Shown here: positions 2,380 through 20,419 of the stretch, piece by piece | How the letters are laid out: the number at the start of each line of letters is the position of its first letter | Numbering within the stretch: position 1 is the stretch's first letter | From: an uncultured Gammaproteobacteria bacterium | GTDB taxonomy: Bacteria > Pseudomonadota > Gammaproteobacteria > PS1 > Pseudothioglobaceae | Direction of reading: 5' to 3' | Assembly (NCBI GenBank): GCA_902509905.1 | Contig: CABWZI010000008.1 | Span: forward strand, 1 to 64,000 | Length of the DNA: 64,000 nucleotides | Made by a program: the position numbers and the translations under genes | Notes under the pieces: model-generated | What the model was told of the DNA's origin: nothing | The model's database searches: none | The model's input: only the letters and a program-made list of their open reading frames with translations

Positions 2380-3602
2380 AGGTAGTTCATCTTAATAATG
2401 CTGATATTACTGGTGGAGCTGCTCGAGCGGCATTCCGAATTCATAAATCATTAATTAAGAATGGCCTTCATTCTCGAATGTGGGTTAATGATGCAAAATC
2501 TGGTGATTATACTGTTAATGGTCCAAATGGAAAGTTAAGAAAAGCATTTGCTCAATTTCGAAGACATTCTGTATATCCAATTATGCAAACAATGAAAACT
2601 CAAAATTCTATACTTCATTCTCCAGCAATTCTCCATTCAGCATGGGGCAAACTTATTAATAATTCTGAGGTGGATATCGCACACTTGCATTGGATTGGTG
2701 GTGAAATGGCTTCAATTTCAGATATTGGTAAAATTAAAAAACCTGTAGTGTGGACACTTCATGATATGTGGGCTTTTTGTGGCGCAGAGCACGTTTCTTG
2801 GGATCAACGGTGGAGAGATGGCTATACTAAACTAAATCGTCCTAGTGAGGACAGAGGTCTGGATATTAATCGGTGGACTTGGAAAAGAAAACTTAAGCAC
2901 TGGAAGAATCCAATCCATATTGTTGCTCCAAGTGAATGGCTAGCAGATTGTGCAAGGAGTAGTCAAATTATGCACGATTGGCCAGTGACAATGATTCCAA
3001 ATTGCTTAGATACTGATGTCTGGAGGCCTGTAGAAAAAAAAATTGCCCGTAAACTGCTTGGTTTACCAATAGATGAACCCTTAATAGCTTTTGGTTCTTA
3101 TGGTGCTAACTCACAATATCATAAAGGTTTTGATTTGCTTGCTCAGGCACTAAGTCATCTTTGTGAATTAAATGAGAATGCTGAGCTAGTAATTTTTGGG
3201 CAACCTACTCCAAAAAAGAAACTTAAGCTTGGATTTCCTGTGAATTTTATGGGGCATCTTTATGATGACCTCACCTTACGTGTACTTTACAGCGCAGTTG
3301 ATGTGTTGGTAGTTCCTTCCCGAAAAGAGGCATTTGGGCAAACGGCCGCTGAAGCACAATCTTGTGGAACCCCCGTTGTTGCTTTTGAAATTGGTGGCTT
3401 ATCAGATATTGTAAAACACAAAAATACTGGTTATTTAGCTGCTCCTTTTGATACAGAAGATTTGGCAGACGGGATTCGATGGATTTTGTCAAATGATGCT
3501 ATTGAAAGTATTTCTGAGAAAGCACGCAAAAGGTCAGTTCAAAAATTTTCTTACGATATAGTTTCAGAACAATATAAAGTTTTATACAAAAGTTTGTTAT
3601 GA
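2376..3602 (+). CDS. Glycosyltransferase family 4 (WcaC-like)
   Basis: A 408-residue GT-B glycosyltransferase. The N-terminal domain has the G-G-A-A-R-A-A glycine-rich loop and W-T-L-H-D-M-W-A-F, typical of WcaC-like colanic-acid enzymes. The C-terminal domain has the GT4 donor-binding E-A-F-G-Q-T-A-A-E pattern followed by C-G-T-P-V-V-A-F. It should transfer a sugar from a nucleotide donor to a lipid-linked glycan at the inner face of the cytoplasmic membrane. It overlaps the FkbM gene by four bases. The acceptor and sugar cannot be deduced. Confidence 0.85.
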   Translation: MKVVHLNNADITGGAARAAFRIHKSLIKNGLHSRMWVNDAKSGDYTVNGPNGKLRKAFAQFRRHSVYPIMQTMKTQNSILHSPAILHSAWGKLINNSEVDIAHLHWIGGEMASISDIGKIKKPVVWTLHDMWAFCGAEHVSWDQRWRDGYTKLNRPSEDRGLDINRWTWKRKLKHWKNPIHIVAPSEWLADCARSSQIMHDWPVTMIPNCLDTDVWRPVEKKIARKLLGLPIDEPLIAFGSYGANSQYHKGFDLLAQALSHLCELNENAELVIFGQPTPKKKLKLGFPVNFMGHLYDDLTLRVLYSAVDVLVVPSRKEAFGQTAAEAQSCGTPVVAFEIGGLSDIVKHKNTGYLAAPFDTEDLADGIRWILSNDAIESISEKARKRSVQKFSYDIVSEQYKVLYKSLL

Positions 3603-3671
3603 TTTATTTAGGTCAAAAATTTGAAGGATTTCCAAATGATTTTTTTGGCCTTATTTAAAATGGTTTAATTT

Positions 3672-4973
3672 ATGGATGAATTGATAAAAAAGATTAGTGA
3701 AAATAATGCCACTGTTGGTGTAATAGGCTTGGGTTATGTTGGCTTGCCACTGTTGCTAAGATTTTCTGAGATAGGGGCTTCAGTTATTGGTTTTGATATT
3801 GATACTACAAAAATTGAGAAACTCAATAATGGCGAAAGTTATATTGAAACAATTTCGTCATCTAGAGTAATTGACTCTATTAAAAGAGGCTTTGAATGTA
3901 CTTGCGATTTTTCCCGAATTACTGAAGTTGATGCAATTATTATTTGCGTCCCAACTCCTCTAAATAAATATCGTGAACCAGATTTAAGTTTTATTTTAGG
4001 GACCATGAAAACTATTTTACCCTTTCTTCGTGAGGGTCAAATTGTTTCACTAGAAAGTACGACTTATCCTGGAACAACTGAAGAAGAATTACTTCCTTTG
4101 ATTAAGTCAACCGGTTTAAAGGTTGGAGAGAACATATTTTTAGTTTATTCTCCAGAGAGAGAAGATCCTGGAAATCAAGATTTCAAGACTCATAATATTT
4201 CAAAAATAGTTGGAGGTCTTTCACCTGCTTGTCTTGAGGTTGGCAAAGCACTTTATGAACTTGCTATTGACAATGTTATACCTGTAAGCTCCTCTAAAAC
4301 TGCAGAAATGACAAAGCTATTGGAAAATATTTATAGAGCTGTAAATATTGGACTAGTTAATGAAATGAAAATTGTTGCTGACAAAATGGGCATAGATATT
4401 CATGAGGTTATTCGAGCTGCCTCTTCAAAACCTTTTGGGTTTACACCTTTTTATCCTGGGCCGGGCCTAGGTGGCCATTGTATACCTATAGACCCTTTTT
4501 ACTTGACATGGAAGGCACGTGAATATGATTTGAGTACCAGATTTATTGAACTTGCTGGTGAAGTCAACTCTAATATGCCATTTTGGGTTTTAGACAAGGT
4601 AATTGATACACTTAATAATCATGGAAGGCCTGTTAAAGATGCTAATATATTAATTCTTGGAATTGCATATAAGAAAAATGTAGATGATATGCGTGAATCC
4701 CCCTCAGTTAAATTAATGGAGCTTCTAACTGCCAAGGGTGCAAAAATTAAATATAGTGACCCTCTAATTCCATTTTTCCCAAAAATTAGAAAATATTCTT
4801 TTGATCTAAACAGTCTTAATCTCACCCCAAAAAATATAGCGAATAATGATTTAATTTTATTAGTTACAGATCATGATGAATTTGACTATGAGTTGATACA
4901 GAAACACGCAAAAATTATTATTGATACAAGAGGTGTATATCTAGAAAATTATGAAAACGTAATCAAGGCTTAA
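3672..4973 (+). CDS. wbpA: UDP-N-acetylglucosamine 6-dehydrogenase-like (WbpA/UGD family)
   Basis: A 433-residue nucleotide-sugar dehydrogenase that oxidises the C6 of a UDP-sugar to a uronic acid in two NAD-dependent steps. The Rossmann loop G-L-G-Y-V-G is at residues 19-24. The catalytic cysteine is C270 in G-G-H-C-I-P-I-D-P. The length matches WbpA/WecC-type enzymes acting on UDP-GlcNAc more closely than the shorter UDP-glucose dehydrogenases, and the V-P-T-P-L and E-S-T-T-Y-P-G-T motifs agree. It supplies an activated uronate for the surrounding polysaccharide genes. Exact substrate is inferred from family resemblance. Confidence 0.85.
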
Positions 4974-4978
4974 AAATA

Positions 4979-5824
4979 ATGATACACGTAGTTATTCCTG
5001 TTTTTAATCGGCTAGAATTAACAAAGCCTTGTATTGAATCTATTAAGAAAAACGAAAAATTTTGTGCACTAAGTATTGTTTTGATAGATGATGGATCATC
5101 TGATGGTACATCTGAATGGATCAAAAAAAACTATCCAGAAATAACAATCCTCCATGGAACTGGTTCATTATTTTGGGGTGGAGCTGTTCATTATGGAATT
5201 GAATATATTTTAAAAAGTTTCAATTCAAATGACTATATTTTGCTAGTAAATAATGATGTTTTTCTTGCTGAAAATACCATTAGTGAATTGGTAAGTTTCT
5301 GTGAGCAAAAAAATCGAAAAGCAATAGTAGGTGCGCTTTCATTGGATCCTAACAATGAAGGAAGAATTTTAAAATCTGGTACGATTGTTAAAAGCTGGTT
5401 TTTTAATTGGACAAGACATGTCTTTATAGGTCAAAAAATTGAAAATATCAGTTCCAATTATGGTCAAGAGGTTGATTTTCTTACAGGAAGATGTTTATTG
5501 CACCCTATTGAAGTATTTTTGAGAGCAGGTAATTATGATTCAATTTCCTTTAGGCATTATGGAGGAGATGATGAATTTTCGATGAGAGTAAAAAAATTCG
5601 GTTTTAAAACATTTCTTTATACATCTGCGTTTATTTATATGCAGCAAACAAGTCCATTAAAATTAGGTTTGTTCGATACTTTTTTTAGCATCAAATCTAG
5701 CTCTAATATAATAAATAAATTTAAATTAAGTTATAGAGTGGCTCCACCATTAGCTAAGTTTAATTTTTTCTTAATTGGAGTATTTAAGTCAATTTTTGTA
5801 GCTCTAAAAAATGTTAACAGATAA
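4979..5824 (+). CDS. Glycosyltransferase family 2
   Basis: A 281-residue GT-A enzyme. The N-terminal V-I-P-V-F-N-R and D-D-G-S-S-D-G-T segments form the nucleotide-binding part. N-N-D-V-F occupies the place of the D-x-D metal site. The G-G-D-D-E-F-S-M-R stretch is the usual GT2 catalytic-base region. It starts five bases after the dehydrogenase stop and overlaps the next gene by 14 bases, so the three are almost certainly cotranscribed. It resembles rhamnosyltransferase-like GT2 proteins, but the donor sugar is unknown. Confidence 0.85.
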   Translation: MIHVVIPVFNRLELTKPCIESIKKNEKFCALSIVLIDDGSSDGTSEWIKKNYPEITILHGTGSLFWGGAVHYGIEYILKSFNSNDYILLVNNDVFLAENTISELVSFCEQKNRKAIVGALSLDPNNEGRILKSGTIVKSWFFNWTRHVFIGQKIENISSNYGQEVDFLTGRCLLHPIEVFLRAGNYDSISFRHYGGDDEFSMRVKKFGFKTFLYTSAFIYMQQTSPLKLGLFDTFFSIKSSSNIINKFKLSYRVAPPLAKFNFFLIGVFKSIFVALKNVNR

Positions 5825-6803
5825 AAAAGTTAATATAAGTAGTTCTTCCTTGCTAATATTTTTTGTTTCAACGATATTTGCATTGATTGTTGGTTCCGGT
5901 ATTTATGGATATGGAATTGATTATTTCGCAGCTTATCATAAGCCTAATTTAATTTGGGGTGGGTTTTTTGATCGCTTTGGATATAGAGTGGCAACACTAA
6001 GTATTAATGGGGTTCACATTGGTGTCCATTTAACCACTTTCATTCTTTCAATTTCAGTAGGTTTTTTCATTAGAAATCAACTTAAGTTAAAGTTAAATTA
6101 CTCTTTTGCTTTTTTTGCTTTTATTTATCTAATATCAATTCACACCTGGCCTATCATAATGTCTACTTCTAATGCTATGAGGCAAGGTTTGACAATGTCC
6201 TTCATATTTTTGGCTTTGATTTCTAGTTCTCAAAAAAACTATATTAGCATGTTATTTTTTTGCCTTATTTCGGTCTTCATGCATAAGAGTGGTTTAATTC
6301 TGACTATGATTATTGTTTTAGCAACCTTTTTAAGTGATACTTTGAAGTTTGATAATTTAGCTAGAAGAAAATTGATTAATAGTCTCATTGGAGTTATTGG
6401 TTTTTTTGCACTATATATTGCCATTAATTTCATTTTCAATATACTCGATGATAATGGTCCCTCAAAGATAATTGAAGGAGATTTTAGAGCTGCATTTTTT
6501 ATGATTGCTTTTTTTTATATAACGTTATCTTTTTTTTATGAAAATCTTACAACTGGCCCAATAAATTTGACTTTATATTATTATAGTTTTCTTTCTCCAG
6601 CAATTTTATTTAGTGGATTAAATTGGGAGTATGAAAGATTAGGAATGATGATGTTAATTCCTTACATTCTCTCTTTTGGTAGTATATTTAATAAAAGCTC
6701 AAATACAATATACCTTTCTATATCCTTTATAGCGTTGCTTGCTATGACTATCTTTACTGGGATGTATGATATTGGATTACGAAATTGGAATGAATATTTA
6801 TAA
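5811..6803 (+). CDS. EpsG family polysaccharide polymerase-like membrane protein
   Basis: A 330-residue protein with about eight hydrophobic membrane segments and a short soluble start. The S-N-A-M-R-Q-G-L motif near the middle is characteristic of the EpsG/Wzy-like polymerase family. It would join repeat units on undecaprenyl diphosphate at the outer face of the inner membrane. It overlaps the preceding GT2 gene by 14 bases. No Wzx-type flippase is visible in the window, so the export partner must lie upstream of base 1 or elsewhere. Confidence 0.75.
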   Translation: MLTDKKVNISSSSLLIFFVSTIFALIVGSGIYGYGIDYFAAYHKPNLIWGGFFDRFGYRVATLSINGVHIGVHLTTFILSISVGFFIRNQLKLKLNYSFAFFAFIYLISIHTWPIIMSTSNAMRQGLTMSFIFLALISSSQKNYISMLFFCLISVFMHKSGLILTMIIVLATFLSDTLKFDNLARRKLINSLIGVIGFFALYIAINFIFNILDDNGPSKIIEGDFRAAFFMIAFFYITLSFFYENLTTGPINLTLYYYSFLSPAILFSGLNWEYERLGMMMLIPYILSFGSIFNKSSNTIYLSISFIALLAMTIFTGMYDIGLRNWNEYL

Positions 6804-6820
6804 TCAATCAGTTAAGCTTT

Positions 6821-8071
6821 ATGAAAATTATTTATCTTCACCAATTTTTTAATACACCCTCAATGCATGGTGGCGTAAGATCTTATGATATTGCAAAATC
6901 TTTAGTTAATAATGGACATACCGTTACCATGCTTACTTCTTCGAGAGAGGTTTCAGATAAGGCAGGATGGGGTTACACTAATGAAGATGGAATTGATGTC
7001 CATTGGTTGCAATTGCCCTATTCAAATAAATTAAGCTATGTAAAAAGATTAAAGTCATTTTTTTTATTTGCATTTCATTCAGCAAAAAAAGGCTCAAGTG
7101 TGAGCGGTGATATCATTTATGCAACTAGCGCTCCATTAAGTATTGCAATTCCGGCAATATATATTTCATGGAGAAAGTCAATACCGATGGTATTTGAAGT
7201 TAGAGATCTTTGGCCAGAGGTACCTATTGCAATTGGTGCTATAAAAAACTCATTAATTAAGTTTTTAGCAAAACTCTTAGAAAAATATACTTATAAAAAA
7301 TCTGAAGCTGTTGTCGCATTATCTGAAGGGATGAAAAATGGAGTAATTGCTACGGGATATGATGCAAATAAAGTCTTTGTAATTCCAAACTTTTCCAATT
7401 TGGAATTGTTTAATGCAGAGTTTTCATCCGAAAAATTTCGAAGTAAGAGAGAGTGGTACCGTGGCTCACCATTATTGGTATACACTGGAACCTTTGGCCT
7501 GATTAATGGAGTAACTTACCTTGTCGATGTTGCAGAGCATTTGGCATTATTGAATTCTAATGTAACGATTTTATTGATTGGCCATGGGCGAGAATATGAT
7601 TTTGTAAAATCTTATGCCGAAGAAAAAAATGTACTAAATATAAATCTATTTATTGAGCCAAGTATTAAAAAGGAGGATTTACCAGAAGTATTAGCAGCTG
7701 CAGACCTCGCTAGTAATCTAGTTATAGATTTGCCAGAACTATGGAATAACTCTGCTAACAAATTTTTTGATGCACTTGCTAGTGGAACGCCTTTACTAAT
7801 AAATGGAAGCGGATGGCAGGCAGATTTAATAAATGAAACAAAATCAGGAATTGTAACTTATGGCAAAACTATTGAACAGTCAGCCAAACTTATTGATGAT
7901 TTTTTGAGAAATAAAAGTTTAGTTAAAGAGTCATCAAAGAACGCCCTAAATTTATCTAAAAAGCTATTTGATAAAGATAAACTAGTGAAAGAAGTTGAGG
8001 AAGTATTGGACTATTCATTGAGGCAAAGAATATCAAGGATATCGCAAAGAAGAAAAAATGAGAAAGTATAA
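6821..8071 (+). CDS. Glycosyltransferase family 4 (WbuB-like)
   Basis: A 416-residue GT-B protein. The start K-I-I-Y-L-H-Q-F-F and the following G-G-V-R-S-Y-D-I-A region match WbuB-like transferases. The V-F-E-V-R-D-L-W-P-E-V-P stretch is the family's conserved segment. The C-terminal domain has S-A-N-K-F-F-D-A-L-A-S-G-T-P, the donor-binding region. WbuB-type enzymes commonly add an N-acetylfucosamine-type sugar to the lipid-linked first sugar; here the sugar is only a guess. It overlaps the following PglC-type gene by 14 bases, and the initiating enzyme and an early transferase are often paired this way. Confidence 0.83.
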   Translation: MKIIYLHQFFNTPSMHGGVRSYDIAKSLVNNGHTVTMLTSSREVSDKAGWGYTNEDGIDVHWLQLPYSNKLSYVKRLKSFFLFAFHSAKKGSSVSGDIIYATSAPLSIAIPAIYISWRKSIPMVFEVRDLWPEVPIAIGAIKNSLIKFLAKLLEKYTYKKSEAVVALSEGMKNGVIATGYDANKVFVIPNFSNLELFNAEFSSEKFRSKREWYRGSPLLVYTGTFGLINGVTYLVDVAEHLALLNSNVTILLIGHGREYDFVKSYAEEKNVLNINLFIEPSIKKEDLPEVLAAADLASNLVIDLPELWNNSANKFFDALASGTPLLINGSGWQADLINETKSGIVTYGKTIEQSAKLIDDFLRNKSLVKESSKNALNLSKKLFDKDKLVKEVEEVLDYSLRQRISRISQRRKNEKV

Positions 8072-8660
8072 GTATTCATTTGATTTAATATTAATATTTT
8101 TAACTCTACCAATATTAATTCCTGTTTTCTTGCTTATTGCAATACTGGTTTTTTTCAAGTCAGATTTTGAAGTATTTTTTAAACAGGAACGCCCAGGATT
8201 AAATGGAAAGGTTTTTTACTTGTACAAGTTCAAAACAATGATGGATAAATTTGATTCTGAAGGAAAATTGAAATCTGATACTGAAAGACTAACTAAATTT
8301 GGAAAATTTTTGAGATCAACAAGTTTAGATGAATTGCCTGGATTATGGAGTGTACTAAAAGGTGATATGAGCCTTGTGGGGCCTAGGCCATTGCTTGTGG
8401 ACTACTTGCCATTTTATTCTGAAATACAGAATAGGAGGCATGAAGTAAAGCCAGGAATTACAGGTTGGGCTCAAGTCAATGGAAGAAATGCAATTAGTTG
8501 GGATGAAAAATTTGAATTAGATGTTTGGTATGTCGATAATCAATCGCTTCTATTAGATATAAAAATCTTATGGCTGACAGTAAAAAAAGTGATAAATCGA
8601 AAAGATATTTCACCAGAAGGGTTGGATATTATGCCAAGGTTTGACAAAAATGAAAACTAG
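8058..8660 (+). CDS. Initiating sugar-phosphate transferase (PglC/WcaJ C-terminal type)
   Basis: A 200-residue monotopic phosphoglycosyltransferase that places the first sugar phosphate on undecaprenyl phosphate. One hydrophobic segment at about residues 8-32 forms the re-entrant anchor. The catalytic core follows: K-Q-E-R-P-G, Y-K-F-K-T-M, S-L-D-E-L-P, then D-M-S-L-V-G-P-R-P and G-I-T-G-W-A-Q-V-N-G-R. The short form without the N-terminal multi-span domain matches PglC. It overlaps the GT4 gene before it and the phosphoesterase gene after it. Confidence 0.9.
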   Translation: MRKYKYSFDLILIFLTLPILIPVFLLIAILVFFKSDFEVFFKQERPGLNGKVFYLYKFKTMMDKFDSEGKLKSDTERLTKFGKFLRSTSLDELPGLWSVLKGDMSLVGPRPLLVDYLPFYSEIQNRRHEVKPGITGWAQVNGRNAISWDEKFELDVWYVDNQSLLLDIKILWLTVKKVINRKDISPEGLDIMPRFDKNEN

Positions 8661-9423
8661 AATAGCTGTCATTTCAGATATTCATGCCAATGCAGATGCA
8701 CTGTCAGCTGTTCTCAATGAATTAAAAAGTAAAGCTGTAGATAAATTAATAGTATTGGGAGATATTCTCACATATGGTTGCCAACCGATTGAAGTTATTA
8801 ATTTATTAAAGAAATATAATAAAATCAATAAAGTTGTTTTTATAAAGGGAAATCATGATCAGATGTATTTTGATCATAGTAGTAATTTAAAGAGCCAAAC
8901 ATATAATCCACCAAAATTTGTTCAAGAATCTTTAAGTTGGACAATGAAAACAATTAGAAATATTCAGTTGAATGAAATTTTTTCTTGGCAAAACAACTAC
9001 TTTTATGGAAATGTTTTTTTCGCTCATGCAAACCCTTTTAAATATGGAGATTGGAGTTATATTGAAGACGAGCAAAAATTGCAAAAATCATTTCAAATAT
9101 TAAGCAAAAATGATTTTTTTGCAGGAGTATTTGGTCATTCTCATAGACAAATTTTCATTTGTAAAAAAGATGATGTAATGGTAGAAATGGAAAAATTTAG
9201 CTCTTATGATAATATCGATCAGTTGATAATTAATACTGGATCAGTAGGCCAGCCTAGAGGAAAAGGTCTGGGTTACGTTGTTTTAGATTTTGATAACAAA
9301 AAACTAGTAAAGGCAGGCTTTAAGAACTTAAAAATTGATTTCATCAATTCAATCAATCTTATTAAAAAGGCTAAGTTTAGTGCCGATACTGAGGCAAAAT
9401 TGCTAAATTACTTTAATGGATAA
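8650..9423 (+). CDS. Metallophosphoesterase (YfcE-like)
   Basis: A 257-residue calcineurin-like phosphoesterase. The metal-binding set is complete: S-D-I-H-A-N near the start, V-L-G-D-I, K-G-N-H-D-Q and G-H-S-H-R. I chose the ATG at 8650, which overlaps the previous stop; an in-frame TTG at 8641 would add three residues. Such enzymes cleave phosphomono- or diesters with two metal ions. A phosphatase is unusual within a glycan assembly operon, and its substrate (perhaps a sugar phosphate) is not evident. Confidence 0.8.
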   Translation: MKTRIAVISDIHANADALSAVLNELKSKAVDKLIVLGDILTYGCQPIEVINLLKKYNKINKVVFIKGNHDQMYFDHSSNLKSQTYNPPKFVQESLSWTMKTIRNIQLNEIFSWQNNYFYGNVFFAHANPFKYGDWSYIEDEQKLQKSFQILSKNDFFAGVFGHSHRQIFICKKDDVMVEMEKFSSYDNIDQLIINTGSVGQPRGKGLGYVVLDFDNKKLVKAGFKNLKIDFINSINLIKKAKFSADTEAKLLNYFNG

Positions 9424-9429
9424 TTTGGA

Positions 9430-10449
9430 ATGAATGTATTAGTCACAGGAGTTGGCGGTGGTATTGGACAGGGTATTATTAAGTCACTAAGAATGATTGA
9501 GAATATTAAAATTAATGTTGTCGCTGCTGATATTAGTGAGTTTGCTACTGGTTTGTATACAGCAGATGCTTCTTATTTGGTTGACAAATACGACTCAGAT
9601 AGATATTTAGAGAGCTTAAGTAAAATTTTTATAAAGGAATCGATAGATTTTTATTTTCCTGGCACTGATGTTGAGTTAATATTTTGCTCTAAAAATAAAC
9701 AATTGATTATGGATACCTTTGGTGTGCATACAGTAATTTCATCTGAAGCAGTAATTAATATTGCTCATGATAAGTATAAAACTGCTATGTTTTTAAAAGA
9801 AAATAATTTTCATTATCCTAAAACAATTCATTTGCAAGATGCTGATGAGGATAATATTGTTTTTCCAGTAATTATCAAACCATGTGTCGGATATGGCTCC
9901 AATGGTGTCTATAAAGTAAATAACTTAATTGAACTGAAAGCTCATTTAAAAAATCCCCAGGATATTTTAATTCAAGAGTGCATTGGAGATGATAATGCAG
10001 AATATACTTGTACCGTAGTTAAAGTTAATGGATTGTTGTCACCCGTTTTGGCTTTAAAAAGAATCTTACGTGCTGGAGATACTTATCGCGCAACTCCTGA
10101 AAAATCCAAAAAAATTGAGCAATATGTTTCAGATGTAGCTAAAGAGCTTGATATTGATGGGGGTTGTAATTTTCAATTAAGACTAGATACAAATGGGAAT
10201 CCTAAAATCTTTGAAATTAATAGTCGTTTTTCAGGAACTACGCCATTTTGTGCACAAATTGGTTTCAATCCCGTCGAGTTTTACTTGAAAAAAAACCTTG
10301 GGCTTGAATGTGATATTAATATTGACTACAATTCAATTTTATTAAGATATTGGTCAGAAGCTGTAGTGCAAAAAAGTTCATTGAAAAAACTTTCTGATGA
10401 TGGCACTTTAAATCCATCCGAAATCCAACAGTTTCAACTTTTTCAATGA
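9430..10449 (+). CDS. ATP-grasp carboxylate-amine ligase (CarB/PylC-like)
   Basis: A 339-residue protein with an N-terminal pre-ATP-grasp Rossmann fold (V-T-G-V-G-G-G-I-G-Q-G) and a central ATP-grasp domain (P-V-I-I-K-P-C-V-G-Y-G-S-N-G-V). F-E-I-N-S-R-F-S-G-T supplies the metal and ATP ligands near residues 255-265. Family members activate a carboxylate with ATP and join it to an amine. The gene lies directly before an SDR and an aminotransferase gene, so it may make an amide on an amino sugar. It overlaps the next gene by four bases. The substrate is inference. Confidence 0.78.
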   Translation: MNVLVTGVGGGIGQGIIKSLRMIENIKINVVAADISEFATGLYTADASYLVDKYDSDRYLESLSKIFIKESIDFYFPGTDVELIFCSKNKQLIMDTFGVHTVISSEAVINIAHDKYKTAMFLKENNFHYPKTIHLQDADEDNIVFPVIIKPCVGYGSNGVYKVNNLIELKAHLKNPQDILIQECIGDDNAEYTCTVVKVNGLLSPVLALKRILRAGDTYRATPEKSKKIEQYVSDVAKELDIDGGCNFQLRLDTNGNPKIFEINSRFSGTTPFCAQIGFNPVEFYLKKNLGLECDINIDYNSILLRYWSEAVVQKSSLKKLSDDGTLNPSEIQQFQLFQ

Positions 10450-16400: not shown

Positions 16401-16460
16401 CTGTTAACCAACCAATTTCACCAAATTTAATGCAAAACCAGATTGATTCAACAGTAAAAA
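16401..16460. repeat. Left copy of glmS-end repeat (att-like)
   Basis: This stretch matches 18530-18589 at about 45 of 54 positions by hand alignment with one indel. The match includes both the intergenic part and, read on the minus strand, a T-V-E coding end like the true glmS terminus. Here the stop codon has changed, so it reads on. Direct repeats of this kind at both ends of a gene cluster look like the two ends of an integrated element. Which enzyme would act on them is unknown. Confidence 0.7.
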
Positions 16461-16835
16461 ACTGAAACCGTATGTACATTTAAATGAGACCGTTATTCCA
16501 CATCTCGAGTTCACTATGGAATTCCAATCCAACTAACTCATTTTCCAAAAAGAATACACTAAACGACAACAAATCATTTATCTTCTTATTTCACATCTTC
16601 ACGATTGAGAAGGGCGGGGATATCAAAAGATATCCAATAGGTTGAATAAAATTCCATATTGACCCATACAAGAAAGAAATGGTTTTCTTTATCGGTTATC
16701 TCAGTCTTAAAAAAAACATGAAAAGGATGTAATGGATGAGCAGATAAGAAATCAACATTTTCCAAGTAAGATTTCAAAGTTTGAAGTGAATTATTATGTT
16801 TTTGATTGAATAGAATAGTAGAATTAACTCATAGT
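16430..16835 (+). repeat. 400-bp module, left (decayed) copy
   Basis: Aligns along its whole length with 17644-18046, starting at the same A-T-G-C-A-A-A-A-C next to the glmS-end-like core and ending at the same C-A-T-A-G-T. The similarity stops abruptly at both ends, which defines the module. Several substitutions, small indels and stops separate the copies, so the duplication is not recent. Confidence 0.8.
16516..16809 (+). pseudogene. Decayed copy of the small recombinase-domain ORF
   Basis: This corresponds to the intact ORF at 17724-18020. Reading it in the homologous frame gives the same order of conserved segments (Q-K-E-Y-T-K-R-Q-Q-I-I-Y-L-L, D-E-Q-I-R-N-Q-H-F-P and a final Y-V-F-D). 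It has a stop after six codons, further internal stops near H-D and before P-I-Q-E, and a shifted middle segment. It cannot make the full protein. It sits immediately right of the left glmS-like repeat, as its intact sister sits right of the middle one. Confidence 0.8.
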
Positions 16836-16902
16836 AAAAAAAGACTCTATTATGAAAGAATTAAACATATCTTTCTTTGAAATATGTTTTCTTTGTCAAT
16901 TA

Positions 16903-17226
16903 TTATTGTTTGTATGCTGAAACCTCAATAATCTTATTTTCATCATTAAATTTTATAATGTCTATGACTTTAAGTATTTCTTCATTATTAATAATTATTT
17001 CAATTAAGCAAATTGCAACCAATTCGTTCAAATAAAGATCGTTTAAAGTTACTGAAATACTTTCAACAGAATCAAAAATATTTTTATTTGAATCTAGAGC
17101 CTGTTTTTTCCCTTTCGCAAGTATTTCCCAATCTTGCAAAATAACATCATCTGAAAATATATTATCTAATCCTTTAATATCTTTATTAGAAAATATTTCA
17201 AAGTAAGTTTTAACTAAATTTTCCAT
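16903..17226 (-). CDS. NTF2/SnoaL-like small protein
   Basis: A 107-residue protein with the cone-fold pattern of SnoaL/NTF2-like proteins: an N-terminal helix Y-F-E-I-F-S-N-K-D, then D-D-V-I-L-Q-D-W, and several alternating beta strands ending in I-K-F-N-D-E-N-K-I. Such proteins are small isomerases, hydrolases or binding proteins, and sequence alone does not tell which. It is on the minus strand within the island, between the left module and the remnants, and appears to be cargo. No partner gene is adjacent. Confidence 0.65.
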   Translation of the reverse strand: MENLVKTYFEIFSNKDIKGLDNIFSDDVILQDWEILAKGKKQALDSNKNIFDSVESISVTLNDLYLNELVAICLIEIIINNEEILKVIDIIKFNDENKIIEVSAYKQ

Positions 17227-17316
17227 TCAATTCCAATTAGTATTAACTATCCTTAATTAAAATGCAAAGAAGCCAGCACCAATAAAAATAGAAAGTTAAT
17301 TATAACAGATTGATTT

Positions 17317-17454
17317 CTAGACCTTTTTTTGGGCATCTACTTCATAGTGTACCCTTTTTTCATAGTGTACCCTTTTTGGAGGCATTAAAAAAACTATCTT
17401 TTGATTAAGTTCAGTGTAGTTTTCAGGGTAGTCCCTTATTCCCATAGAGATCAT
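17317..17454 (-). pseudogene. Gene remnant with internal 18-bp in-frame duplication
   Basis: A 45-residue frame from ATG 17454 to TAG 17317; the frame is open further upstream for about 18 codons (A-C-Q-E-W-R-L-E-T-L) before a stop, so it looks like the tail of a larger gene that has lost its start. The hexapeptide K-R-V-H-Y-E occurs twice in a row because of an exact 18-bp tandem duplication at 17341-17376. I do not recognise the family. It lies just left of a NERD-like fragment on the same strand. Confidence 0.45.
17341..17376. repeat. Exact 18-bp tandem duplication
   Basis: Two perfect 18-bp units lie side by side, each beginning TTCATAGTGTACCC and ending in a T run. On the minus strand they fall in frame in the remnant at 17317-17454 and duplicate six codons. 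Perfect identity implies a more recent event than the decay of the 400-bp module nearby. Confidence 0.9.
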
Positions 17455-17514
17455 ATTTCTATCAACCAGTTTTAAGGTCTCCAGTCTCCATTCCTGACAA
17501 GCATTACACTAGAC

Positions 17515-17601
17515 TTAATGAAATCGACGGTATAGTTCTTTATCTAAACTAAACCATAAATTTAATTCTGTTCTCTGTTCCCCAATCCATCCTTTAAACA
17601 T
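17515..17601 (-). pseudogene. N-terminal fragment resembling a NERD-domain nuclease-related protein
   Basis: A 28-residue frame with ATG at 17601 and stop at 17515. It begins M-F-K-G-W-I-G-E-Q-R-T-E-L and continues L-W-F-S-L-D-K-E-L-Y-R-R-F-H. This resembles the start of NERD-domain proteins, in which a G-E motif is followed by a linker leading to the nuclease-like core. The core (normally D-G-x-T-Q-I-D-H) is absent, so only a stump remains. The family call is from memory of the pattern and would need a profile search. Confidence 0.4.
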
Positions 17602-17637
17602 AAAAGGTATTCTACCTTCTACCTCTAACCTTTAAAA

Positions 17638-17687
17638 GGGTCCATGCAAAACTACTCAACAGTAACAAATTGTTTCCGTATGGACCC
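17638..17687. repeat. Middle att-like core with inverted GGGTCCAT arms
   Basis: The centre, read on the minus strand, spells V-T-V-E-stop like the glmS terminus. It is bracketed by a perfect 8-bp inverted repeat, GGGTCCAT at 17638-17645 and ATGGACCC at 17680-17687. An 11-bp palindrome, AACAAATTGTT, lies inside it. The upstream flank shared by the left and right copies is missing here. Inverted arms around a core are what recombinase binding sites look like, but no recombination was observed. Confidence 0.55.
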
Positions 17688-18046
17688 CTATATGAATCAG
17701 TAATCCCATGTCTAGAGTTCTCAATGGAATTTCAATCCAATAATCTCATTTCCCAAAAAGAATACACTAAACGACAACAGATCATTTATCTTCTTATCCA
17801 TCATCTTCACGATAGAGAAGGGTGGGGTTACAGAAAGATATCAAAATGGTTGAATCAGAGTGGAATAAAGACCCTTAGAGGGAAGAACTGGTTCTCTTCA
17901 TCAGTTATCTCAGTCTTAAAGAGAAAACACGAGAGAGATCTAATGAATGAACAGATCAGAAATCAACATTTCCCAATTAAGGTTTCAAGATTTGAGGTGA
18001 ATTACTATATTTTTGATTGAATAGAATAGTACAATTAATTCATAGT
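17644..18046 (+). repeat. 400-bp module, middle (intact) copy
   Basis: Homologous along its full length to 16430-16835. Both copies start within the glmS-end-like core and end with the same short sequence downstream of the ORF stop. The next gene starts 18 bases after the module end, so module and cargo are tightly joined. This copy retains an uninterrupted coding frame, unlike the left one. Confidence 0.8.
17724..18020 (+). CDS. Small protein with recombinase-type DNA-binding segment
   Basis: A 98-residue protein. Residues about 31-66 read G-W-G-Y-R-K-I-S-K-W-L-N-Q-S-G-I-K-T, then R-G-K-N-W-F-S-S-S-V-I-S-V-L-K-R. This is the pattern of the Recombinase domain (PF07508-like) that follows the catalytic domain of large serine recombinases and binds DNA by helix-turn-helix. 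No catalytic serine domain precedes it. I chose ATG 17724; a TTG at 17670 would add 18 residues. The module copy at 16516 is broken. It may be a DNA-binding accessory factor or a stable remnant. Confidence 0.65.
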   Translation: MEFQSNNLISQKEYTKRQQIIYLLIHHLHDREGWGYRKISKWLNQSGIKTLRGKNWFSSSVISVLKRKHERDLMNEQIRNQHFPIKVSRFEVNYYIFD

Positions 18047-18064
18047 TCAAAATAATCTTTATTT

Positions 18065-18508
18065 ATGAGTATATTTACAGATAGGGGATGTGCGGGATGT
18101 TTAGCATTAAAGTTAGTTGTTTTATTCTTTATATTTACATACCCTCCATTTATCTCATTATTTTTTAAGGTCAAATCTATCCATCCAAATTGGGAACTTG
18201 GATTGATAATTTTGGGTCTTATTCTATGGGTTTTTATTTTTAAATTATTTGATTATTTTTATAAAAGATTCCCTATTTTTGTAAAATTATTACTATATGG
18301 ACCTTTATTACTTGTTATTTATGTATTGGTGTTTGGGTTAAGTCCAGATTATGCATCGATTAATCCATTGCATAACACCTATGTTTCGTCTCTAGTATTA
18401 ATTTTTGCTTCTTTAGTGGTCATAATTTGGATTTATTGTCAAATTTTTAATGGTAAATATTGTACCGCAGGTAGTAATGAGGATAGTGATACTGAGGATG
18501 GAAGTTAA
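18065..18508 (+). CDS. Small multi-span membrane protein (island cargo)
   Basis: A 147-residue protein with four likely membrane segments (about residues 15-35, 43-62, 70-90 and 107-125) and an acidic tail E-D-S-D-T-E-D-G. The start D-R-G-C-A-G-C-L holds two cysteines before the first helix. I do not recognise the family. It begins 18 bp after the intact module and ends 21 bp before the right glmS repeat, so it is the cargo of the right-hand element. A role in defence or transport would be a guess. Confidence 0.6.
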   Translation: MSIFTDRGCAGCLALKLVVLFFIFTYPPFISLFFKVKSIHPNWELGLIILGLILWVFIFKLFDYFYKRFPIFVKLLLYGPLLLVIYVLVFGLSPDYASINPLHNTYVSSLVLIFASLVVIIWIYCQIFNGKYCTAGSNEDSDTEDGS

Positions 18509-18529
18509 GTTCAAGTGTATCAGTGGAGA

Positions 18530-18589
18530 CTGTTAACTAACCAAATTCACCAATTTTAATGTACACCCAAATCATTCAACGGTGACTGA
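18530..18589. repeat. Right copy of glmS-end repeat (authentic glmS terminus)
   Basis: This contains the last codons of glmS (S-V-T-V-E, stop at 18572-18574, minus strand) plus about 42 bases downstream. It is repeated at 16401-16460 in the same orientation. The end of glmS is strongly conserved and is known as the target of Tn7-type elements; this repeat is longer than a Tn7 target duplication and includes coding sequence, so a different mechanism is more likely. Confidence 0.7.
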
Positions 18590-20419
18590 CTTTGCTAAAT
18601 TTCTCGGCTTATCAACATCTGTGCCTTTCTCAAGTGCGACATGATAGCTAAGTAACTGAAGTGGTATGGTAAATATAATAGGTGCAGTTATTCTGCCAAG
18701 GTTTGAAGTGATTTGAATAACTTCCATGGCATCCATGGATTGAACTTTTGAGCTCTCATCTTCAAAAACAATCATTTGCGACCCCCTGGATTTTACTTCC
18801 TGTAAATTAGATTTAAGTTTCTCTAAAAGTTCATCATTTGGTGCAATCGCAATCACAGGCATATTTTTATCAATTAAAGCAATTGGCCCATGTTTAAGCT
18901 CACCTGCAGGATATGCTTCGGCATGAATATAACTTATTTCCTTAAGTTTTAATGCTCCTTCCATAGCAATTGCATGCATAGTTCCTCTTCCTAAAAATAA
19001 AGCACTACTATTATTTTTGAAGCGTTTTGCCAAATGCATTATCTGTTTTTCTTGAAGCAGTGTTTCATTAATAAGTCCAGGCAATTTTTTTAAACCACTT
19101 ACAATTTCGCTTTCTTGCATTTTACTTATGCTGCCTTTTAGCTTACCAATAGCACAGAGTAATAATGCTAGAGAAACTAGTTGTGTAGTAAAAGCTTTTG
19201 TGCTTGCCACTCCAATTTCTGGGCCAGCATGAGTTAAAAATGTTAAATCAGATAATCTAGTAAGGCTTGATTCAGGTGAGTTAGTTATACAAAGAGATTT
19301 TAATGTATTGTTTAATTTTTTAGCTATTTTAAGAGCCTCTAATGTATCAGCTGTTTCACCACTTTGTGATAAAGCAATAAAAAGAGTTTGATCCAAAATA
19401 ATAGGGCGTCGATATCGATATTCGCTGGCTATTTCAACATTACATGGAATTTTTGCAATGTCTTCCATCCAATATTTTGCAACAAGGCCTGCATTATAGC
19501 TGGTCCCACAGGCAACAATTTGAATTTGAGTTATTGATCTAAAAATTTCATCTGCCTGATGACCAAAAGATGAAGAAATAACAGAATTATTAGTGATTCG
19601 AGATTCTAACGTATCCCTTATTGCTTGTGGTTGCTCAAAAATCTCTTTTTGCATGAAATGATCAAAATTACCCTTGTTAGCCTGCCCAGCTTTAAGCTTG
19701 GATTCTTGAGCTGGGCGGTTCACTATTTTTCCATTTAAATCATAAATAGTAACTTTATCTAATTTAACTTCAGCAATGTCACCTTCCTCAAGATAGATAA
19801 ACTTTTTTGTTGTCGACAATAGGGCCATTTGATCGGAAGCAATATAGTTTCCATTTTCACCAATTCCAATTAATAAGGGAGAGCCTTTTCTTGCAGCAAT
19901 TATTTGATCTGGATATTTTGATGAAATAACTCCAATTCCATATGAACCTTGCAAGGATTTAACAGCTTTTTGAACTGATTCAACAAGAGAAGTGCATGAA
20001 TTCATTTCTAAATCAATTGAGTGCGCAATAACTTCTGTATCAGTTTCAGATTTGAATTCATAACCTTGCCTTATTTGGCTATTTTTCAATTCAATATAAT
20101 TCTCAATAATTCCATTATGAACTACACTCACAGTGTTTTTTGATATGTGTGGATGAGCATTGCGACTTGATGGCTCGCCATGAGTAGCCCATCTAGTATG
20201 AGCAATTCCTATATTTCCATTGATTTCTTTATTCCTTAACTTTAGATTTTTTTCTAAATTACTAACTTTTCCAACTGACCTTGCTCGATCAAAAGAATTT
20301 TTTTGAGAAAGAACAATTAGGCCAGATGAATCATAGCCTCGATACTCTAAACGATTTAAACCTTCTAAAAGAAGCGGAGTAATATTTTTATCTGTAACGC
20401 CACCAACTATTCCGCACAT
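18572..20419 (-). CDS. glmS: Glutamine-fructose-6-phosphate aminotransferase (isomerizing)
   Basis: A 615-residue enzyme making glucosamine-6-phosphate from fructose-6-phosphate and glutamine, the first step to UDP-GlcNAc. Cys2 (M-C-G-I-V-G-G) is the glutaminase nucleophile; H-T-R-W-A-T-H-G and H-N-G-I-I-E-N-Y complete that domain. Two SIS domains follow (A-C-G-T-S-Y and S-Q-S-G-E-T-A-D-T), and the C-terminus L-A-K-S-V-T-V-E is the conserved end. The full length fits the family. It feeds both cell wall and the polysaccharide locus. Its 3' end is the apparent integration target of the adjacent island. Confidence 0.97.
   Translation of the reverse strand: MCGIVGGVTDKNITPLLLEGLNRLEYRGYDSSGLIVLSQKNSFDRARSVGKVSNLEKNLKLRNKEINGNIGIAHTRWATHGEPSSRNAHPHISKNTVSVVHNGIIENYIELKNSQIRQGYEFKSETDTEVIAHSIDLEMNSCTSLVESVQKAVKSLQGSYGIGVISSKYPDQIIAARKGSPLLIGIGENGNYIASDQMALLSTTKKFIYLEEGDIAEVKLDKVTIYDLNGKIVNRPAQESKLKAGQANKGNFDHFMQKEIFEQPQAIRDTLESRITNNSVISSSFGHQADEIFRSITQIQIVACGTSYNAGLVAKYWMEDIAKIPCNVEIASEYRYRRPIILDQTLFIALSQSGETADTLEALKIAKKLNNTLKSLCITNSPESSLTRLSDLTFLTHAGPEIGVASTKAFTTQLVSLALLLCAIGKLKGSISKMQESEIVSGLKKLPGLINETLLQEKQIMHLAKRFKNNSSALFLGRGTMHAIAMEGALKLKEISYIHAEAYPAGELKHGPIALIDKNMPVIAIAPNDELLEKLKSNLQEVKSRGSQMIVFEDESSKVQSMDAMEVIQITSNLGRITAPIIFTIPLQLLSYHVALEKGTDVDKPRNLAKSVTVE

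Follow-up and report, generated by a model that had tools for sequence, protein, structure and literature searches.

Among the staphylococci, the SCC and SCCmec elements (CcrAB) are large serine recombinase (LSR) elements that sit at the 3' end of a conserved gene, can be stacked, and in some cases are without a recombinase. Their target gene differs from glmS, the target of the elements described here, and to our knowledge no counterpart of P1, the small protein with which this work is concerned, is known from them. Tn7 targets the 3' region of glmS, but its position and ends are unlike those of the P1 elements. The closest known system is that of the ssrA islands of Dehalococcoides (DsiA/DsiB), which, as described in PMC3146451, are likewise found in tandem and are likewise bounded by copies of the 3' end of an essential gene. 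According to the same account a serine recombinase of ~540 aa and another of ~200 aa lie at the att edge of these islands, an arrangement comparable with the 573 aa and 203 aa proteins of one of our elements (G014), and the integrase frame runs over att, the authors suggesting that full function of DsiB may be confined to the circle; a comparison with CcrB and CcrA is made there also. Set against that description (PMC3146451), the elements reported here differ in using glmS rather than ssrA, in having a separate conserved protein resembling the recombinase domain (RD) across att, in their hosts and in the existence of glmS cassettes of about 0.6-2.6 kb. A second parallel comes from the integration-dependent immunity of mycobacteriophages (BPs gp33), where attP lies inside a gene and integration alters the product (PMC4557955). 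In the arrangement reported there the repressor loses its C-terminus, whereas P1 would lose its 5' end; the likeness drawn here is one of attP arrangement. A literature search, conducted mostly outside subscription journals, returned no description of a family of glmS LSR islands with a P1-like protein, and as far as that search extends neither a free-standing RD-like protein on the far side of attP nor glmS cassettes devoid of a recombinase have been described before.

Cassettes at the 3' end of glmS

The window, by which is meant the whole stretch of 64,000 nucleotides analysed here, contains the target gene glmS at 18572-20419 on the reverse strand (a homologue was found in 48 of 67 relatives), and the tail of this gene, encoding V-T-V-E-stop (18572-18586, reverse strand), is the current insertion point. 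The last glmS codons, GTNACNGTNGARTRR, occur twice in the 64 kb, once at 17652-17666 and once as the gene's own tail (18572-18586), where shuffling expects 0.01 occurrences; the first of these copies is the apparent attachment core beside which the initial annotation had placed P1, and that placement holds. The core is surrounded by the arms GGGTCCAT and ATGGACCC to form an att site between two cassettes (17638-17687), in which the crossover was placed at 17662|17663, the same centre as in two full elements. From crossover to crossover the newer cassette spans 17663-18582 (920 bp) and the older one 16455-17662 (about 1,208 bp), and a degenerate third glmS-tail core, recognised from its sequence and from repeat D4, lies at the far end of the older cassette (16444-16458, reverse strand). 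By eye the arms of the cassettes seem to be swapped over 16455-18582, the GTACAT type being outermost and the GGACCC type central.

The two modules are direct repeats (D1-D3), and P1 is the sole gene common to both. It had been described as the only gene of the repeated module, which is correct for the shared part, but each module also carries cargo: in the newer cassette a 147-aa predicted membrane protein (18065-18508, forward strand) with only weak sub-cut-off Pfam matches, and in the older a SnoaL-like protein (16903-17226, reverse strand; PF13474 at 27.3 bits, cut-off 22). Neither cassette contains a recombinase gene of its own, and P1 is the only PF07508 match in the window's own genome (G000, 89.6% complete); nor was an LSR found in G006, which is a single contig and 99% complete. 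Since full-size elements with an LSR and palindromic att sites are present at glmS in other genomes, the window is taken to hold a stack of two short cassettes without an LSR, of which the newer lies beside glmS.

The P1 gene and its product

P1 (17670-18020, forward strand) had been annotated as a protein of 98 residues with the residue pattern of the RD of LSRs. The open reading frame at 17724-18017, followed by a stop at 18018-18020, does translate as MEFQSNN...GWGYRKISKWLN...TLRGKNW..., and the profile search that had been proposed as a check gave a match to PF07508 of 28.1 bits against a curated cut-off of 21.1 (E about 2.4e-6 to 3.4e-6). The alignment is limited to profile positions 15-52 of 102, so that the domain is partial, and a Pfam profile search found no match in P1 to the Resolvase catalytic domain (PF00239), as had been claimed; P1 is not itself an LSR. 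Among other copies the same profile scores 26.1 bits in G014, and in G024 (18.9) and G053 (20.5) it falls below the 21.1 cut-off. The length of 98 residues probably has to be revised. The codon aligned with Met17724 in relatives is ATC, ATT, CTT or TTA and the upstream residues IPxLEF are conserved; because the methionine is not conserved while the residues before it are, the true start is probably the TTG at 17670, giving 116 aa, rather than the ATG at 17724. A TTG or ATG is found at the position of TTG 17670 in G015, G023, G014b and G018.

Six pairwise comparisons among four intact copies of P1 gave dN/dS values of 0.13-0.31, and the pair G014a/G022 gave 0.03 with dS near saturation. On this evidence P1 is a protein gene under purifying selection. 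Its N- and C-terminal strands, which lie outside the PF07508 match, are conserved across families, and full-length matches that include the strands set the P1 family apart from RD-only matches inside other recombinases. It might be supposed that P1 is a functionless remnant, either a decaying fragment of an LSR or a fixed leftover of insertion, as many copies are broken (those of G006, G004, G015b, G167 and G865, and the older copy in the window) and elements outside the Thioglobaceae often retain little besides P1. The older window copy (16516-16806, forward strand; repeats D1-D3) is a pseudogene, 65% identical to the intact P1 and interrupted by four in-frame stops (two TGA, two TAA). Such an explanation is very improbable given the dN/dS of 0.03-0.31 between intact copies, the conservation across families of strands beyond the PF07508 match and the coexistence of P1 with intact LSRs.

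Three further suggestions were rejected. A derivation of P1 from the RD of its own element's LSR gave a best BLASTP E of only 0.09, and fewer third-position differences, which would point to constraint on the DNA itself in the 5' part of P1, were seen in just one of seven pairs (G014a/G022, p=0.02). As for P1 being a phage gene, P1 as a query found no relative in viral contigs; an alignment query matched four viral contigs, and in the two that were inspected the matches lie inside serine recombinases. The LSRs P0002 and P0006 likewise had no match in viral contigs. Mini-P1 frames, consisting of the N- and C-terminal strands only with the whole helix-turn-helix (HTH) part gone, were observed in G015 after the second core (L034) and in G022 (L037, 5277-5561), that of G015 covering profile positions 2-21 and 85-104.

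An AlphaFold2 model of P1 (mean pLDDT 78, with weaker ends) consists of a strand, HTH helices and a second strand. As modelled, P1 would share the core three-helix RD-like fold of the PF07508 domain in the SPbeta and Bxb1 integrases (PDB 9dxd, 9dxh, 9iub), differing from these enzymes in matching only part of the profile (15-52), in the added N- and C-terminal strands and in lacking the catalytic and zinc-ribbon domains. VIA-align of the model against 9dxd gave Z 7.0 (2.5 A over 70 residues), a score to be read beside those of unrelated terminases of up to Z 7.2, and in its output the integrases of SPbeta and Bxb1 range over Z 5.2-7.2, a level that unrelated proteins reach as well. Foldseek with the model returned nothing at E<=0.001, the comparison with the SPbeta/Bxb1 RD fold giving E 0.7. 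The RD assignment of P1 rests mainly on sequence profiles.

The HTH fold is also weakly similar to the N-terminal domains of DeoR, SorC and LsrR, and P1 reads towards the cargo in several cassettes via a partly conserved linker. These features, and the precedent of attP within a repressor gene in the mycobacteriophages as described in PMC4557955, would suit an HTH transcriptional regulator or immunity factor that is switched by integration and controls an att-proximal promoter and the cargo. We consider such a role possible but rather unlikely, as the best profile matches of P1 are to recombinase DNA-binding domains, its link to the LSR and att is stronger than that to any promoter, and the cargo is sometimes on the opposite strand (16903-17226 in the window).

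Full-size elements and linkage to glmS

The elements that follow glmS in G014 (about 11,046 bp) and G024 (about 9,820 bp) end in an inverted copy of their own first bases together with the glmS tail. In both, the end next to glmS has a P1-like frame, and an LSR (573 and 547 aa respectively) occupies the opposite end. The two LSRs carry Resolvase, Recombinase and Zn-ribbon domains, all of them above cut-off in P0002 and with the Zn-ribbon of P0006 just below (25.2 against 25.3 bits), and are 28-30% identical to each other. A 203-aa resolvase is encoded just ahead of the LSR in G014. The G024 element also encodes a NERD protein, a 199-aa tyrosine recombinase and an ORF that falls just short of threshold against the replication protein ORF2/G2P (27.0 bits, cut-off 27.8). 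A 932-aa protein with no Pfam match was observed in the same element (L039, 13711-16509).

When the circles are joined, the att palindromes are 58 bp long in G014 and 52 bp in G024, compared with 50 bp at the window site; their arms differ, and in each of them the centre falls on A|C of the Thr codon in glmS. Inverted-repeat folding is pronounced in two of the att sites (z about -9.7) and weaker in the window site (z -2.9). Both ends bear direct repeats of the glmS tail, which restore the gene, as expected of an LSR-type element, and it is very probable from this anatomy that these are LSR elements inserting at the 3' end of glmS. Candidates for the helper enzyme that had been postulated for P1 exist: intact LSRs lie across attP from P1-like genes in G014 and G024, but none was found in the 89.6% complete genome of the window. 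The directionality or targeting role that had been suggested for P1 is a candidate one. In G243 an LSR broken by two IS-like insertions lies between two P1s, with a glmS-tail core between the LSR and the second P1. P0002 searched against 369 genomes of the class gave only fragments, in G062 and G243, and the G826, G865 and G857 regions hold no LSR related to P0002 or P0006.

As glmS is the classical target of Tn7, and G024 encodes a 199-aa tyrosine recombinase, the array could be thought a Tn7-like or tyrosine-recombinase island in which the LSRs are incidental. Inspection of the listed ORFs brought out no Tns gene, and no tyrosine recombinase was noticed in G014; furthermore the crossover inside the glmS tail, the palindromic arms and the shared A|C do not agree with Tn7, which inserts downstream of glmS. 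An island of either kind is extremely improbable.

Matches to P1 were found in 13 of 95 relatives (G000 included). The expectation that homologues would be tied to the glmS core, and not scattered, was borne out: glmS lies within the fetched region of ten of the 13 Thioglobaceae genomes with a P1 match, the others being G003, G018 and G032 (the contig of the last is only 5 kb), and P1 lies right after the glmS stop in seven further genomes from four other gammaproteobacterial families (G243, G167, G292, G619, G865, G857 and G826). The best matches on named contigs are from Candidatus Thioglobus, SUP05 and gammaproteobacterial single cells. The class sample gave a match in 7 of 369 genomes (G000 included), with P1 directly after glmS in G243 (the first of two copies), G167 and G292; the contig of G119 opens within a reversed glmS-tail match (13 of 15 positions, by eye), and the matches in G103 and G405 are weak and away from glmS. 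In the phylum sample 32 of 398 genomes had a match and the sole new glmS-linked genome was G619; glmS was present in only G000, G243 and G619 among the 33 loci examined for it, and most of the remaining matches lie within resolvases or LSRs, where they cover profile positions of about 25-80. Short RD-like proteins that are not at glmS occur in G103 and G741. Within the order of G292 a match was found in four of 53 genomes, all four of them glmS-adjacent, and the corresponding counts are 2 of 19 for the order of G243, 1 of 5 for that of G167 and 1 of 200 for that of G619. Full-length relatives of P1 away from glmS are found in G018 (L036, 17340-17657) and G003 (L029, 430-813), where another target, or a secondary one, may have been used; a broken pair of copies on one contig of G015 is likewise not at glmS. 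Genes resembling those of type I restriction-modification were seen by eye beside glmS-adjacent P1 in two distant families (L061 of G167, 2978-9582; L138 of G619, 3472-6098).

Sites that appear empty were found in G010, G025 and G028, in which galU lies 128 bp past the glmS stop, compared with 3,348 bp in the window. Exact downstream cores are present on the glmS strand in G000, G015, G016 and G027 and none was exact on the opposite strand, and different elements are flanked by different arms. From the strand of the cores, the differing arms and the empty sites we infer that every new insertion appropriates the glmS tail and moves its predecessor outward; as the element ends carry the last glmS codons, glmS would be restored each time. 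The cargo of a cassette on contig 150 of G022 (L037) appears by eye to include small proteins with a MORN-like repeat and a zinc ribbon; this contig looks chimeric inside repeats near 2150.

P1 across the attachment site

In the circles of G014 and G024, excised in silico, the order is LSR, attP, P1, all in the same reading direction. In the integrated state the glmS-adjacent P1 frame, at +1 or +2 relative to glmS, runs without a stop into the tail of that gene, and seven of ten such copies have no ATG, GTG or TTG ahead of the first conserved strand (one copy from each of ten genomes was counted, that of G051 being excluded as too decayed). An early TTG or GTG is present in G243, G292 and G619; in G167, G865 and G857 P1 is broken or shortened further downstream. 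On the G024 circle AAGGATAATG, a Shine-Dalgarno sequence with ATG, stands right behind the LSR stop and is in frame via attP into P1, and on the G014 circle a TTG overlapping the LSR stop is gained upstream of P1. The circle of G243, the third element of which both ends are known, has stops between LSR and P1 and gains nothing upstream, its only TTG following the crossover, so that the open circle reading is that of two elements, G014 and G024. That every copy has a conserved reading frame ahead of the crossover was considered and rejected, as the extra open length appeared chance-like by eye; the idea was retained for these two elements only. There is about an even chance that P1 is complete or switched on mainly in the circle.

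The account that we favour, with a confidence falling just short of even, is that P1 acts with the LSR as a partner that spans att, is complete in the circle and favours integration at glmS. In full elements attP would lie inside the P1 reading unit and P1 would therefore be made only from the excised circle, translated either after the LSR stop (as from the Shine-Dalgarno-ATG of G024) or, by slippage on a run of nine A, as a C-terminal extension of the LSR. We infer further that the RD-like HTH would let P1 bind att DNA, and that P1 would steer the LSR, by biasing or targeting it, to integration at glmS, although the assignment of P1 to the integration side of the reaction is distinctly tentative.

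A small protein linked to att and to an LSR might also be a recombination directionality factor for LSR excision, retained by the cassettes for mobilisation in trans, and the usable TTG or ATG of cassette copies on the P1 side of the crossover would suit this, as would the maintenance of P1 under selection where no LSR was found. With seven of ten glmS-adjacent copies having no early start codon, P1 would be absent when excision is needed, and the arrays persist; this role is improbable. For full elements the evidence speaks against an excision factor that is produced while integrated, because P1 there usually has no start codon.

Turning to the slippage that the favoured, att-spanning account allows, a run of nine or more A occurs once per element in G014 and G024, and a run of nine or more T is absent from about 11 kb. 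The A run lies 13 nt (G014; L032, glmS-offset 10991) and 4 nt (G024; L039, glmS-offset 9745) from the end of the LSR stop codon, in the same codon phase, a pattern that was noticed post hoc. A -1 slip, adding an extra A, is computed to give LSR-P1 fusions of 719 aa (G014) and 686 aa (G024) in the circle, and, in the integrated state, products of 634 and 577 aa whose tails are unrelated. That the integrase thus has a removable C-terminal domain, fused through attP in the circle and separated by integration, which would leave the LSR by itself at one end and P1 without a start codon behind glmS, is unlikely. If true, the recombination product would alter the enzyme itself, providing a built-in directionality, and small cassettes would survive on P1 alone.

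The window cassettes differ from the full elements in that P1 lies at the opposite end and in the opposite orientation, with its start inside the arm on its own side of the crossover. Integration therefore need not silence P1 there. An LSR supplied in trans may move small cassettes of this kind, P1 being retained as an att-binding factor that belongs to them; for the window cassettes such movement is an assumption, because of this orientation and own-side start and because no LSR was found in G000 or G006.

How serine integrases become directional is an open question of practical importance. A family that is conserved over at least five gammaproteobacterial families, has an RD-like domain on the other side of attP from its integrase and is retained in recombinase-less cassettes of about 0.6-2.6 kb would be a natural testable system. 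For marine Thioglobus/SUP05 bacteria, the 3' end of glmS is an accretion site that stores small genes, the order of which probably reflects the time of their insertion.
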